In this document: positions 2,602 to 5,700 of the stretch, one piece after another
How the letters are laid out: each line of letters opens with the position of its first letter
Numbering within the stretch: the stretch's first letter is position 1
Assembly (NCBI GenBank): GCA_902766185.1
Contig: CACXCQ010000160.1
Location: forward strand, 1 to 13,879
Direction: 5' to 3'
DNA length: 13,879 nt
From: an uncultured Eubacteriales bacterium
GTDB lineage: Bacteria; Bacillota; Clostridia; Peptostreptococcales; Anaerovoracaceae
Position numbers and translations under genes: made by a program
Notes under the pieces: model-generated
Told to the model about the DNA's origin: nothing
The model's input: only the letters and a program-made list of their open reading frames with translations
Database searches by the model: none

Positions 2602-2840
2602 CTCAATAAACTCCCTTCCCCCCGCGTAAAGCGGCAACAAACAAATACCCTCCTGTCGGCGCTGTCCTTTCCTTCTTCCTATCCCTGTTGCTGTCATGGA
2701 CCGTCCTTGGAATTCCAACGTTTCCCGCCGCCTGATCACCAAATGCCGGGCAAAGGCAGGCCCGCTTCGTTGTCGTAATTTTCAGACATCATCCGTCACT
2801 TCTTCCCCGCAATGACAGCAAACTGATACCGTTTTACCGG
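2602..2840. other. Intergenic stretch upstream of the 177-residue gene
   Basis: No supported gene lies here. It contains a perfect 12-nt palindrome (TTGGAATTCCAA, 2707-2718) and a small CCGC/GCGG hairpin (2622-2634) close to the RBS of the 177-residue gene. A short minus-strand ORF (MMSENYDNEAGLPLPGIW, start about 2791, stop about 2737) has a poor RBS and is not called. No clear sigma-A promoter pointing left was found, so the 177-residue gene may use an alternative sigma factor or a weak promoter. Confidence 0.5.
2707..2718. promoter_or_regulatory. Perfect 12-nt palindrome, candidate operator
   Basis: TTGGAATTCCAA is fully self-complementary and lies about 106 nt upstream of the start of the 177-residue gene, in an otherwise noncoding stretch. 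It could be a regulator site. No second copy was noticed in the window, and no regulator is assigned. Confidence 0.3.
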
Positions 2841-2869
2841 TTGAACCGCCGCAAACAAAACGCTATACT
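2841..2869 (+). promoter_or_regulatory. Consensus sigma-A promoter of the 28-residue peptide unit
   Basis: TTGAAC (2841-2846) and TATACT (2864-2869) are separated by exactly 17 nt, the optimal sigma-A spacing, and each hexamer is close to consensus. The predicted transcription start near 2876 leaves a 5-prime leader of about 60 nt before the ORF at 2938. It is among the best-matching promoters in the window. Confidence 0.8.
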
Positions 2870-2937
2870 ATTCATGTAAGATAAAACTAACGAAGTGCTT
2901 CAAGCATGAAATGAAGATCAGGAAAAGAGGGATATAC

Positions 2938-3024
2938 ATGATGAGCTTCGTCAAAAACATCATCACGGACCTGAACGAATGTGCCAGGCTGATCGATGTG
3001 ATCGTAGCTAAGGGTAACCTGTAA
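2938..3024 (+). CDS. 28-residue peptide of unknown function, amphipathic helix
   Basis: The ORF reads MMSFVKNIITDLNECARLID and ends VIVAKGNL. It is preceded by AGAGGG (2926-2931), 6 nt before ATG 2938 and 9 nt before ATG 2941. A third in-frame ATG at 2911 would add MKIRKRGIY but has no RBS. Upstream lies a consensus promoter with a 17-nt spacer; 23 nt after the stop begins a perfect terminator. The unit therefore has every part of a monocistronic gene. Hydrophobic residues recur every 3-4 positions (F4, I8, L12, I19, I22), so a helix would be amphipathic rather than a plain membrane span; there is one Cys (15) and no signal peptide. Candidates are a phenol-soluble-modulin-like peptide, a type I toxin, a signalling peptide or a small regulatory binder. 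No family is recognised. Alternatively, the transcript is an sRNA whose ORF is incidental. Confidence 0.7.
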   Translation: MMSFVKNIITDLNECARLIDVIVAKGNL

Positions 3025-3047
3025 ACAAAGCCTGAATTGCTTTTTTC

Positions 3048-3076
3048 AACGGATGAGATCGCTCATCCGTTTTTTT
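3048..3076 (+). terminator. Strong intrinsic terminator of the small-peptide unit
   Basis: A perfect 10-bp stem (AACGGATGAG with CTCATCCGTT), a 4-nt ATCG loop and a run of seven T (3070-3076) form a textbook terminator on the plus strand. Its 3-prime arm and T run overlap the last codons and TGA of the converging DUF5688 gene. On the minus strand the stem is not followed by a U tract, so it is directional. Confidence 0.9.
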
Positions 3077-3947
3077 CTTCCCGGAAGCCAGCAAGTCTCG
3101 GCACGATGCTGATCTTTCCCTCCTTCGCCCGGTAACGGTAGATGGTGTAGGAAAGCAGCTCCTCCGGCCGGGTGATGGTATGATTGCCCTCCGCCAGCAT
3201 GAGAAACAGATTGTACGGATCGGTCTTGTCCGCCGATACGGCGAAGAACTCGTGGATCGATGTGGGCATGATGAAGTAGTCTCCGCCCATGTGCTCGGCC
3301 AGCCTTTGCATATCGTTGGAATACAGCATGGTGGTAGCGCCGCACAGACCCGATTCATTCGTCATCACGCAGACTTCCTTATCGCTGCCTTCGATGAGCT
3401 TCGCCGGGAACAGCCTGGGGGTGTTCTCCATGGCCAGGCGGTGGATCTCTTTCGCGTCCAGCCCGGTGCCATCGATCATATCGTTGGTGATGATCGCCGA
3501 ATTGATCCCATCCTCGGTCACGCTGTGGACGAGCCGGTAGATGACCGTCATATCCAGAAAATCGGTATGGGGAACGTTTTCCTTCAGCTCGTGATTCATC
3601 CCGGCATTCACCAGGTTCGCCACGATCCTGTCCGTATGGCCCTGCACGTCGAATTCCGCAAGCCCCGGCATCCGGGTACCGGACCAGGTCACCATGATGC
3701 GGGCGATGAGTTCGAGGATCCCGTCCAGATCTTCATCCTCCTGAAACTCCAGGTACAGATCGTCCAGATAAAGTGTTGGGATGGCCACCTCCGGATCCCT
3801 CTCCGGGGGGATCAGGCAGAAGGCGTCCTTCGGGCCGTTGACCTTCATTACCGTGTTCACCCTGGGCTCGTAGGAGTGAAATACCGGCGGGAGAAATTCC
3901 TTGATCCGCTGCGGGATCAGTGTTTTGAATAAGGCATAATCCATCAT
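3063..3947 (-). CDS. DUF5688 family protein
   Basis: At 294 residues this matches my memory of the DUF5688 family of gut Clostridia, whose function is unknown. The most telling stretch is the C-terminal half (about 190-240): a VMTNESGLCGAT motif, then TMLYSNDMQRLAEHMG, then DYFIMPTSIHEFFAVSAD, corresponding to the family pattern of a mini-domain ending in a P-S/T-S-I-H-E element. The N-terminal half is acidic and predicted mixed alpha/beta, with no signal peptide or membrane helix, so it should be cytosolic. AAAGGAG (3954-3960) lies 6 nt before ATG 3947; the second Met at 3944 is an alternative start. It has its own promoter and is monocistronic. The stop codon falls inside the terminator of the converging small-peptide gene. 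Recognition is from memory of the family pattern. Confidence 0.85.
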   Translation of the reverse strand: MMDYALFKTLIPQRIKEFLPPVFHSYEPRVNTVMKVNGPKDAFCLIPPERDPEVAIPTLYLDDLYLEFQEDEDLDGILELIARIMVTWSGTRMPGLAEFDVQGHTDRIVANLVNAGMNHELKENVPHTDFLDMTVIYRLVHSVTEDGINSAIITNDMIDGTGLDAKEIHRLAMENTPRLFPAKLIEGSDKEVCVMTNESGLCGATTMLYSNDMQRLAEHMGGDYFIMPTSIHEFFAVSADKTDPYNLFLMLAEGNHTITRPEELLSYTIYRYRAKEGKISIVPRLAGFREEKNG

Positions 3948-4115: not shown

Positions 4116-4838
4116 ATGCTTGAACGAAACGGACTCAATATCCGCGATTATATCAACGAAAAAAAGAATGAGCTGCTCCTGGGCAGACTCACCACAAAAG
4201 ATTTTATCCGTTTTTTCCGGGAAAACAGCGACCCGATCCAGTCCCTGTTCACCTATTCCGAATGCGCCATGATGGAGGTGGAGACGAAATTCCGCGTGCT
4301 GAACGAGGAGTTTCTGCTGATCTACGATCACAGCCCTATTGAAACCATAAAATCCAGGGTCAAGACCCTGGACTCTCTCATCGAGAAGATGAATCGCTAC
4401 AACGTTCCGCTGAACCTTCAGGCCATCGAAGAAAACATCAACGATATCGCCGGCGTCCGGGTGATCTGCTCCTTCCAGGACGACATCTACGAGCTGGCAG
4501 ACTGCCTTCTGGAGCAGGACGACGTGACTCTGGTGGACCGCAAGGACTACATCCGCAGCCCCAAGAACAACGGCTACCGGAGCCTGCATCTCATCGTCTC
4601 CGTGCCCATCTTCCTGGAGCACAAAAAACGCGACATGAAGGTCGAGGTCCAGCTGCGGACCATCGCCATGGACTTCTGGGCCAGCCTGGAGCACAAGATC
4701 CGCTACAAGCAGGACCTGCCTGAAGACATCGCCGAGTCCCTATACGATGAACTGCTGGAATGCGCCATCCTCAGCACGGACCTGGACAAGCGCATGCAGA
4801 ACATCCGCAATCAGCTGGATCACTCCCAGAGGAAATAA
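4116..4838 (+). CDS. Small alarmone synthetase (RelQ-type GTP pyrophosphokinase)
   Basis: A 240-residue protein with a lone RelA/SpoT synthetase domain and no hydrolase, TGS or ACT domain, so it should make (p)ppGpp from ATP and GTP/GDP in the cytosol. Key parts: D110 in INDIAGVRVIC (metal-binding Asp), KDYI at 143-146, the NGYRSLH signature at 152-158, and E177 in VEVQLRT, the catalytic Glu; a DFWASLEHKIRYK segment (186-198) follows. The C-terminal helix (about 200-235) suits the oligomerisation helix of RelQ proteins. The start at 4116 is chosen because AGGGGG lies about 9 nt upstream and the alternative ATG at 4083 precedes the predicted transcription start. It is single-gene, divergent from DUF5688, and overlaps the barstar gene tail to tail by 19 nt. 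RelQ versus RelP type is not certain. Confidence 0.93.
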   Translation: MLERNGLNIRDYINEKKNELLLGRLTTKDFIRFFRENSDPIQSLFTYSECAMMEVETKFRVLNEEFLLIYDHSPIETIKSRVKTLDSLIEKMNRYNVPLNLQAIEENINDIAGVRVICSFQDDIYELADCLLEQDDVTLVDRKDYIRSPKNNGYRSLHLIVSVPIFLEHKKRDMKVEVQLRTIAMDFWASLEHKIRYKQDLPEDIAESLYDELLECAILSTDLDKRMQNIRNQLDHSQRK

Positions 4839-5143
4839 TCTTCCTCCTCATACGTTTCCGGCTCCGGCTCCCGGAAAGTGACCTTCAGCCGGGGGTTCTC
4901 CTCCGCAGCGTCCATGCACACCGCCCGGAAGGCCCGGGCGTAATCGGTGAGGACCCCTTCCATTTCTTCATATCCGGCAAAGGTGATCCCGCCCTGCATT
5001 TCGCTGAAGACATCGTATAAAGCGTCCAGATTCCCACCGTACCATTCCGGCAGGCTGAGCTCCTCGGCCAGTTTTTCGTGCAGCTCTTCCCTGCTGCGTA
5101 TTTCCGTCAGGTCGACCCTGTATTCATCCGTATATTCCATCAT
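4820..5143 (-). CDS. Barstar family ribonuclease inhibitor (immunity protein)
   Basis: A 107-residue protein that should bind and neutralise the barnase-like enzyme encoded just upstream. The barstar signature is clear at 31-46 (LPEWYGGNLDALYDVF), matching LPEYYGENLDALWDCL of Bacillus barstar. The Asp residues that contact the barnase active site are kept as D40 and D44, and aromatic residues W34, Y35 and Y43 occupy the positions of Y29, Y30 and W38. It is about 18 residues longer than barstar, with a Glu-rich tail (92-107). It has no signal peptide and is cytosolic. Its ATG overlaps the ribonuclease stop (ATGA, 5140-5143), so the two are translationally coupled; a second Met follows at once. 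It is the last gene of the operon and overlaps the end of the alarmone synthetase gene by 19 nt. Confidence 0.93.
   Translation of the reverse strand: MMEYTDEYRVDLTEIRSREELHEKLAEELSLPEWYGGNLDALYDVFSEMQGGITFAGYEEMEGVLTDYARAFRAVCMDAAEENPRLKVTFREPEPETYEEEDYFLWE
4855..4877. repeat. Inverted repeat just past the alarmone synthetase stop
   Basis: TTTCCGG and CCGGAAA are perfect 7-nt arms around a 9-nt GC-rich spacer, lying 16 nt after the plus-strand stop and inside the barstar coding sequence. There is no T run on either side, so it is at best a weak pause or an RNA-stabilising hairpin. The strength of the case is limited to the symmetry. Confidence 0.4.
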
Positions 5144-5700
5144 CGTTTCCCGTCCCTGTCATAAAGCAGCTCAAACGTCTTGTAGTGGTCATCCGTATAA
5201 TAGATCTCATCGTTGGAGAAGACCAGCCTTTTCGCGCCTCTGTTCCTGGCGTTCAGCGTGTCGATGTCGCATTCGCGGTATTTCCCGTCCGGAAGCTTCC
5301 TCTCGTAGTTGCCGAAGCGGTCCCCGCCGATGCACTTGCCCGGGGCGTAGCGCTCCAGAGATCCGCCGTCCCAGCCCAGCTCACGGGCCTCCTGCTTGGT
5401 GATGTAGTTTGACGGAAGTTCTCCGTAAACATGCAGATAGAGGGCCACCTCGTCCTTTCCGTCATAGACGCCGTACCGATCCGGCACCTCCCCGCCGCTT
5501 CGGTCTGTGGAGGTCTCCTCCTGCGTCGTGGCTTCGGTCTGCGCTGTCGCTTCCGTCTGGGTCTGCGTCTGGGTGACGGTCTCCTCCGTGCCGTTCTGCC
5601 CGGACGCGTCCTTTTTTCCGCAGCCCGCCCAAAGGCAGGCCAGAACCAGCACCAGCAGCAGCGCGGCGATGCGTTTGCCGTATAGTTTCCTTCTTTTCAC
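5140..5700 (-). CDS. Barnase-like secreted ribonuclease, predicted lipoprotein
   Basis: A 186-residue guanyl-specific endoribonuclease of the barnase (N1/T1 microbial) family. Residues 1-27 are a lipoprotein signal peptide (basic start, LLLVLVLACLWAGC) with lipobox Cys27, so it should be exported and membrane-anchored. Residues 30-75 are a Thr/Gln/Glu-rich tether. Residues 80-186 align well with barnase: NYITKQEARELGW (K102 equals barnase K27), APGKCIGGDRFGN, RECDID (E143 equals catalytic E73), R154 and R158 (R83, R87), and TDDHYKTF (H172 equals catalytic H102). All catalytic residues are present, so it should be active. The start is GTG at 5700, with GGAGG 11 nt upstream. It lies 21 nt after addA and overlaps the barstar gene by 4 nt, the usual toxin/immunity pairing. 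Its role could be phosphate or nucleotide scavenging, defence or competition. Confidence 0.93.
   Translation of the reverse strand: MKRRKLYGKRIAALLLVLVLACLWAGCGKKDASGQNGTEETVTQTQTQTEATAQTEATTQEETSTDRSGGEVPDRYGVYDGKDEVALYLHVYGELPSNYITKQEARELGWDGGSLERYAPGKCIGGDRFGNYERKLPDGKYRECDIDTLNARNRGAKRLVFSNDEIYYTDDHYKTFELLYDRDGKR

Follow-up and report, generated by a model that had tools for sequence, protein, structure and literature searches.

We analysed a stretch of 13,879 nucleotides (the window) in which a short gene unit lies on the forward strand. A first-pass annotation had placed a promoter, a leader, a ribosome-binding site, a 28-codon ORF and a terminator there, and all of these were found at the positions claimed. 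The elements of the unit and the gene that converges on it are as follows.

2815..2829, + strand: box 1, ACAGCAAACTGATAC (consensus ACAGCAAACTARTAC), conserved 5' of the -35 hexamer in an alignment of 27 promoters
2841..2846, + strand: -35 hexamer TTGAAC, of which TTGA is invariant in 27/27 aligned promoters
2851..2861, + strand: box 2, GCAAACAAAAC (consensus GCAAAYTAAGC), within the -35/-10 spacer
2864..2869, + strand: -10 hexamer TATACT, with a spacer of 17 nt to the -35 hexamer
2921..2934, + strand: ribosome-binding site GGAAAAGAGGGATA, preceded by a leader of ~60 nt
2938..3024, + strand: 28-codon ORF MMSFVKNIITDLNECARLIDVIVAKGNL, with the ATG at 2938 and the stop codon TAA (3022-3024) included
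3041..3046, + strand: U-tract of six T, immediately 5' of the terminator hairpin
3048..3076, + strand: intrinsic terminator with a 10-pair stem (3048-3071), a 4-nt loop and a T-run to 3076
3063..3947, - strand: convergent neighbour encoding a DUF5688 protein (Pfam PF18941, E 2.2e-54), outside the unit

The hairpin that terminates the peptide gene contains the stop codon of the DUF5688 gene. The view that the elements form a complete monocistronic unit was supported. The further judgement that the unit is too complete to be chance did not follow from the window alone, where the promoter was unremarkable (seven sites with 9/12 matches versus 5.1, sd 2.3, in shuffles), but it was borne out by conservation, with homologous units in 31/49 genomes of the genus and a pN/pS of 0.29. 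We therefore regard the unit as a gene because its relatives conserve it, the window promoter by itself being within chance expectation. Terminator-like sites numbered 21 in the window versus 9.8 (sd 3.4) expected, and the terminator of the unit had the longest stem listed on the + strand (10 pairs).

The 28-residue peptide had a single match in the window's own genome. When it was searched against 61 genomes (its own and 60 relatives), matches were obtained in 18 at E<=1, of which some are due to chance, and the good matches had the same architecture when their loci were read. The pattern AAAAGAGGGATA-N0-4-ATG brought in more divergent members, ending YGR and similar, and a 66-position promoter model was built and run on the genomes of the genus, which we take to be UBA1191 of GTDB in the Anaerovoracaceae, with each unit read by eye. 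The 31 genomes counted above come from this promoter model and the reading of loci; 30 of them carry one copy and G021 carries two. Among the 18 best genomes (>=90% complete, <=5% contaminated) the unit was present in 10 and absent in 8, all of which were re-searched, and since these 8/18 show none, the genus does not depend on the unit. Twelve of the 18 unit-less genus genomes were re-searched with laxer filters, and those of their loci that were read (not all) hold other genes.

Outside the genus, the only distinct member among the loci read was a 38-aa form in a genome of another genus (G398). A protein profile matched 71/297 genomes of the order at E<=0.5, those outside the genus being partial with a best E of 0.032, and the promoter model matched 52/296 genomes of the taxonomic family at E<=0.01, including 34 from other genera. 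Nine of these 34 were read (including G398, G454 and G317), the other 25 being weaker matches, and gave a unit of the family only in G398 and G454. A single scan of a named genome collection yielded 14 loci, in MAGs labelled Clostridia, Clostridiales, Firmicutes or Bacillota, with goat or roe deer intestine named in five of their titles and UBA1191 in one. Matches in the PDB were at chance level (best E 0.59), a likeness to Spo0E that we considered found no support in Pfam, and literature searches with words rather than sequences did not find this family. Judged from these genomes, the unit is a genuine small-protein gene, so far almost only in one genus of gut Clostridia.

The coding character of the ORF was assessed from substitutions. 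In ten close pairs, hand-picked by us, pN/pS was 0.29, and with synonymous sites making up 22% of the total, 45/93 changes were synonymous (P 1e-8), so that the synonymous versus nonsynonymous check proposed earlier came out biased to synonymous changes. All pairs of the 17 sequences of the 28-aa type gave a pN/pS of 0.41; in these 28-mers codon position 3 varied most and position 2 least, and in two close pairs the peptides were identical and the DNA changes silent only. By these patterns the ORF is evolving like a translated gene under purifying selection, from which we infer translation. We also looked among the relatives for the case named at the outset as a refutation, a promoter and terminator kept around a broken ORF, and the outcome favoured coding: strong promoter-model matches in the genus (35 places, E below 1e-6) all precede an intact short ORF of either this family or the second one described below. 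The 30 tabulated units were chosen for an intact ORF and give no independent test of its integrity, for which the test rests on units first found by the promoter model (those of G009, G066 and G398, and the second family).

Across 28 peptides of 23-37 aa, Ala16 and Asp20 never vary and Ile19 hardly ever does. The KGNL tail of the window peptide turned out not to be constant, as relatives end KGQL, NGNL, YSGNL, YSGSLK, YGR, YGK, KGR and otherwise, and three relatives have Ala or Thr in place of the single Cys. The amphipathic character that had been read from the window peptide held for the larger part of the family: the helical moment at 100 degrees exceeded that of shuffles (p<0.05) in 20/33 peptides (second-family members account for three), but not in the other 13, namely two long forms and 11 short ones of the YGR/YGK/KGR types. 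By hydropathy none of the 33 peptides has a membrane-spanning stretch (maximal 15-residue mean 1.48), and no signal peptide was apparent by eye. Charge ranges from -2 to +5 over the 33 peptides and is near-neutral in most 28-mers. The peptide had been called one of no recognised family, and this stood, with 0/28 members matching Pfam or NCBIfam at E<=10; these collections hold PSM/delta-lysin models, and HMMER filters drop most weak matches.

Staphylococcal phenol-soluble modulins are short leaderless amphipathic helices, and by description the present peptides resemble them in this respect. A leaderless secreted or membrane-active peptide that behaves like a PSM would fit the size, the amphipathic periodicity and the near-neutral charge of most 28-mers, and in 8/30 loci an ABC permease of the FtsX/MacB-like kind (Pfam on L055) is encoded 1.2-3.8 kb upstream, three of these loci also having an ABC ATPase. 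However, this ABC pair occurs only in part of the 28-aa subclade and at a distance from the unit, and neither the window nor the loci of the other types showed it. The family also differs from the modulins in its two-box promoter, its U-tract terminator, its variable charge and the lack of any family match. The PSM-like proposal of the first-pass annotation was left unsupported, and we consider such an activity unlikely.

In the alignment of 27 promoters, two GCAAAYTA boxes overlie the promoter as a direct repeat, at a distance of 33 bp in the window and 31-33 bp across the alignment. A factor sitting on box 2, between -35 and -10, would be expected to interfere with or reshape polymerase binding. 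The box 1 pattern occurred, with <=1 mismatch, at 52 places in the 49 genus genomes versus 5 for a reversed control pattern, and these comprised 15 units of the first family, 3 of the second and 34 other places. Some of the boxes outside the families may be chance, because several sit in stretches that are open in another frame. Among the 34, box 1 (ACAGCAAACTARTAC) was seen before ATP-synthase-I-like genes in nine genomes (L071, L074, L091, L092, L190, L196, L198, L200 and L206), and five others (L076, L192, L195, L199 and L202) precede AlaX-like genes, labels given by eye except for L071 (ATP-synt_I, E 2.2e-4, below the curated cut-off) and L195 (tRNA-synt_2c and tRNA_SAD), which were assigned with Pfam. 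Box 1 also precedes aldehyde dehydrogenase, cation efflux and other genes. A promoter resembling the -35/box-2/-10 part stands before a gene for a NifU-domain (Fe-S scaffold) protein in six genomes (L183, L184, L186, L187, L209 and L210; Pfam on L187 only), and a weak promoter-model match (E 0.28) lies before a gene that by eye looks like an Rrf2-type regulator (L216, G019:C51). Naming the factor that reads the boxes was attempted and given up, as the genes behind them gave no theme firm enough. Further downstream, the 13-nt leader element GAAAAGAGGGATA was invariant in 13/13 aligned leaders, with L005 and L077 departing from it (2 of 30 units), and the ribosome-site pattern followed by ATG marked family units only in the genus genomes searched, except for L044, where it precedes a 424-aa ORF.

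The 3' end of the unit carries a signature of its own. At least five T within 12 nt before the hairpin were present in 20/21 of the unit terminators that the scan recognised (21 out of 30 units) versus 6/90 other terminator-like sites from the same loci, and the 6 exceptions proved to be family units themselves, four belonging to the second family and two being long forms of the first. After regrouping, the figures were 26/27 for the family versus 0/84 for others (Fisher test), a post hoc comparison in which the 6 were moved after reading. An internal U-rich sequence, a terminator hairpin and a poly(U) tail constitute the simplest Hfq module described in PMC5558911, and the family's 3' layout matches it. 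This layout, its restriction to family terminators and the invariant leader element speak for a dual-function RNA, one that encodes the peptide and also regulates, its U-tract/hairpin/poly-U end being bound by a protein other than Hfq; SR1/SR1P (PMC7430163) and VcdRP (PMC8672173) would be analogues. Against it, Hfq (PF17209) was found in 0/49 genus genomes at E<=0.001, in a search whose control was positive in 5/14 known genomes, Rfam returned nothing in the window at gathering scores, the window transcript had an ordinary fold (z -1.39), and the consensus structure of 13 transcripts consisted of the terminator pairs only. The dual-function sRNA listed in the first-pass annotation drew some support from the 3' end, but no Hfq was found in the genus, and we hold it to be a possibility of less than even standing.

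The fold of the window transcript had also suggested that the U-tract sequesters the ribosome site. This was rejected for the family, as the mean fraction of the site paired with the tract was 0.07 over 30 units, where another T-run was taken if none had been recognised ahead of the hairpin (e.g. L002, L005 and L065). Overall the ribosome site was paired to 0.48 with the tract and to 0.34 with the tract replaced (30 units); pairing of the site with the U-tract does occur in a few units, including that of the window (0.57), but is not a family-wide feature. The lack of sequestration bears on the proposal of a type I toxin held in check by an antisense RNA antitoxin. A short ORF with its own promoter and terminator, in one copy in 30/31 unit-bearing genus genomes, could be such a toxin, but antisense promoter-like sites were without excess (10 in 30 units versus 8.5 expected from shuffles), the peptides lack a membrane-spanning stretch, and viral, phage or plasmid relatives were not found in one search with an alignment and two with one peptide. 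A phage or plasmid origin was also set aside after PHROGs gave only weak unnamed matches, for 2/28 members with a best E of 0.0026. A toxin of this type is disfavoured, and we regard it as very unlikely.

We then considered the neighbours of the unit in 30 loci, taken as longest, uncurated ORFs and with many loci ending at contig ends. Neighbours vary between subclades, and the commonest, a diaminopimelate dehydrogenase gene (Pfam on L055), is nearby in 12/30 loci. The DUF5688 gene is convergent at the same place in the window and in three relatives (L064, L065 and L066). Also in the window, at 4820-5700 on the - strand, a nuclease/inhibitor pair lies near the unit: a barstar-family gene shares 4 nt with the end of a ribonuclease (PF00545) gene whose start is lipoprotein-like. 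Relatives of both adjoin the unit in L064 and L066. A lipoprotein-like gene (by eye, no Pfam match) lies downstream on the same strand in 9/30 loci, beginning 117-222 nt past the peptide start codon when longest-ORF starts are used. This spacing would suit the leader peptide of an attenuator controlling the downstream gene, a role that is made highly improbable by a convergent next gene in the window and L064-L066, by downstream genes that vary by subclade, and by conservation that falls on C-terminal residues with no run of one codon. Because the neighbours vary and the next downstream gene converges on the unit in some loci but shares its strand elsewhere, an action in trans is probable. No gene cluster is common to all loci, which makes a dedicated receptor, exporter or enzyme alongside it unlikely.

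The same promoter model also matched a 28-aa ORF of different sequence (the MTNTIRNLKNELKQYAELYSKYSKRMYW type) in G030, G027, G016 and G454, with 26-aa members of this second family in G072 and G005. Its loci (L157 in G030:C23, L180, L181, L207 and L236) show a similar promoter and a U-tract terminator. Six good matches were obtained in a search of 349 genomes of the taxonomic family, 5 of them in the genus. The unit in G454 is identical to that of G030 over the stretch compared, so that contamination of one of these genomes is possible. When profiles were compared with hhalign, residues 1-19 of both families were collinear (E 4e-4, probability 34%), and the second family is probably a paralogue of the first. 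This second family under the same promoter, the two promoter boxes and the U-tract before the hairpin all go beyond what had been described for the window.

Among the functions listed at the outset, a small protein regulator fits best. The specific form that we propose, and to which we give about an even chance, is a regulated monocistronic gene for a cytosolic, trans-acting amphipathic-helix protein that docks on a partner. A transcription factor binding both boxes would switch the gene, and ribosomes would use the conserved GAAAAGAGGGATA site on its transcript. The resulting peptide would then dock as a single amphipathic helix, through a face formed by positions 15/16, 19 and 23, on a partner protein or a membrane surface, and would modulate that partner much as SR1P does GapA and VcdP citrate synthase (PMC7430163 and PMC8672173, respectively). 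The second-family peptide would be paralogous and have either a different partner or a related one. In favour of docking we count the 31/49 distribution, the pN/pS, the helical moment, the two-box promoter, the second family and the varied neighbours, and against it the 13/33 peptides that fail the moment test, the 8/18 best genomes without the unit and the Cys replaced in three relatives.

The known systems closest to the unit, compared by description, include two regulators. SR1P of Bacillus subtilis docks on the metabolic enzyme GapA, and SR1/SR1P (PMC7430163) shares with the present unit a short independent transcript, a small ORF and a regulated promoter; it differs in that SR1P has 39 aa. 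VcdRP of Vibrio cholerae is a short regulated transcript whose 29-aa protein VcdP, similar in size to ours, acts on citrate synthase (PMC8672173), but its base-pairing part and its partner were established by experiment, and no Hfq was found in the present genus. TimP, a membrane toxin under sRNA control (TimP/TimR, PMC7667032), is likewise a conserved small protein that had gone unnoticed and is encoded by a short gene, and is set apart by the lack, in our family, of a membrane-spanning stretch and of any sRNA partner found. Rather doubtfully, the docking proposal could be widened to a peptide regulon in an Hfq-less clade, in which one factor would control two paralogous genes with a shared 3' module, peptide and RNA would both act in trans, and the U-tract/hairpin/poly-U module would be read by an RNA-binding protein other than Hfq.

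Proteins of fewer than 30 residues are easily missed in annotation, and for the present one there is evolutionary evidence of translation. The family raises two testable questions, one on the identity of the factor that recognises the boxes, the other on whatever may recognise the U-tract where no Hfq is detectable. The promoter signature can be defined, and the 3' signature separates the family from other terminators in the loci read; with both signatures in hand, the family can be found in uncultured gut bacteria.
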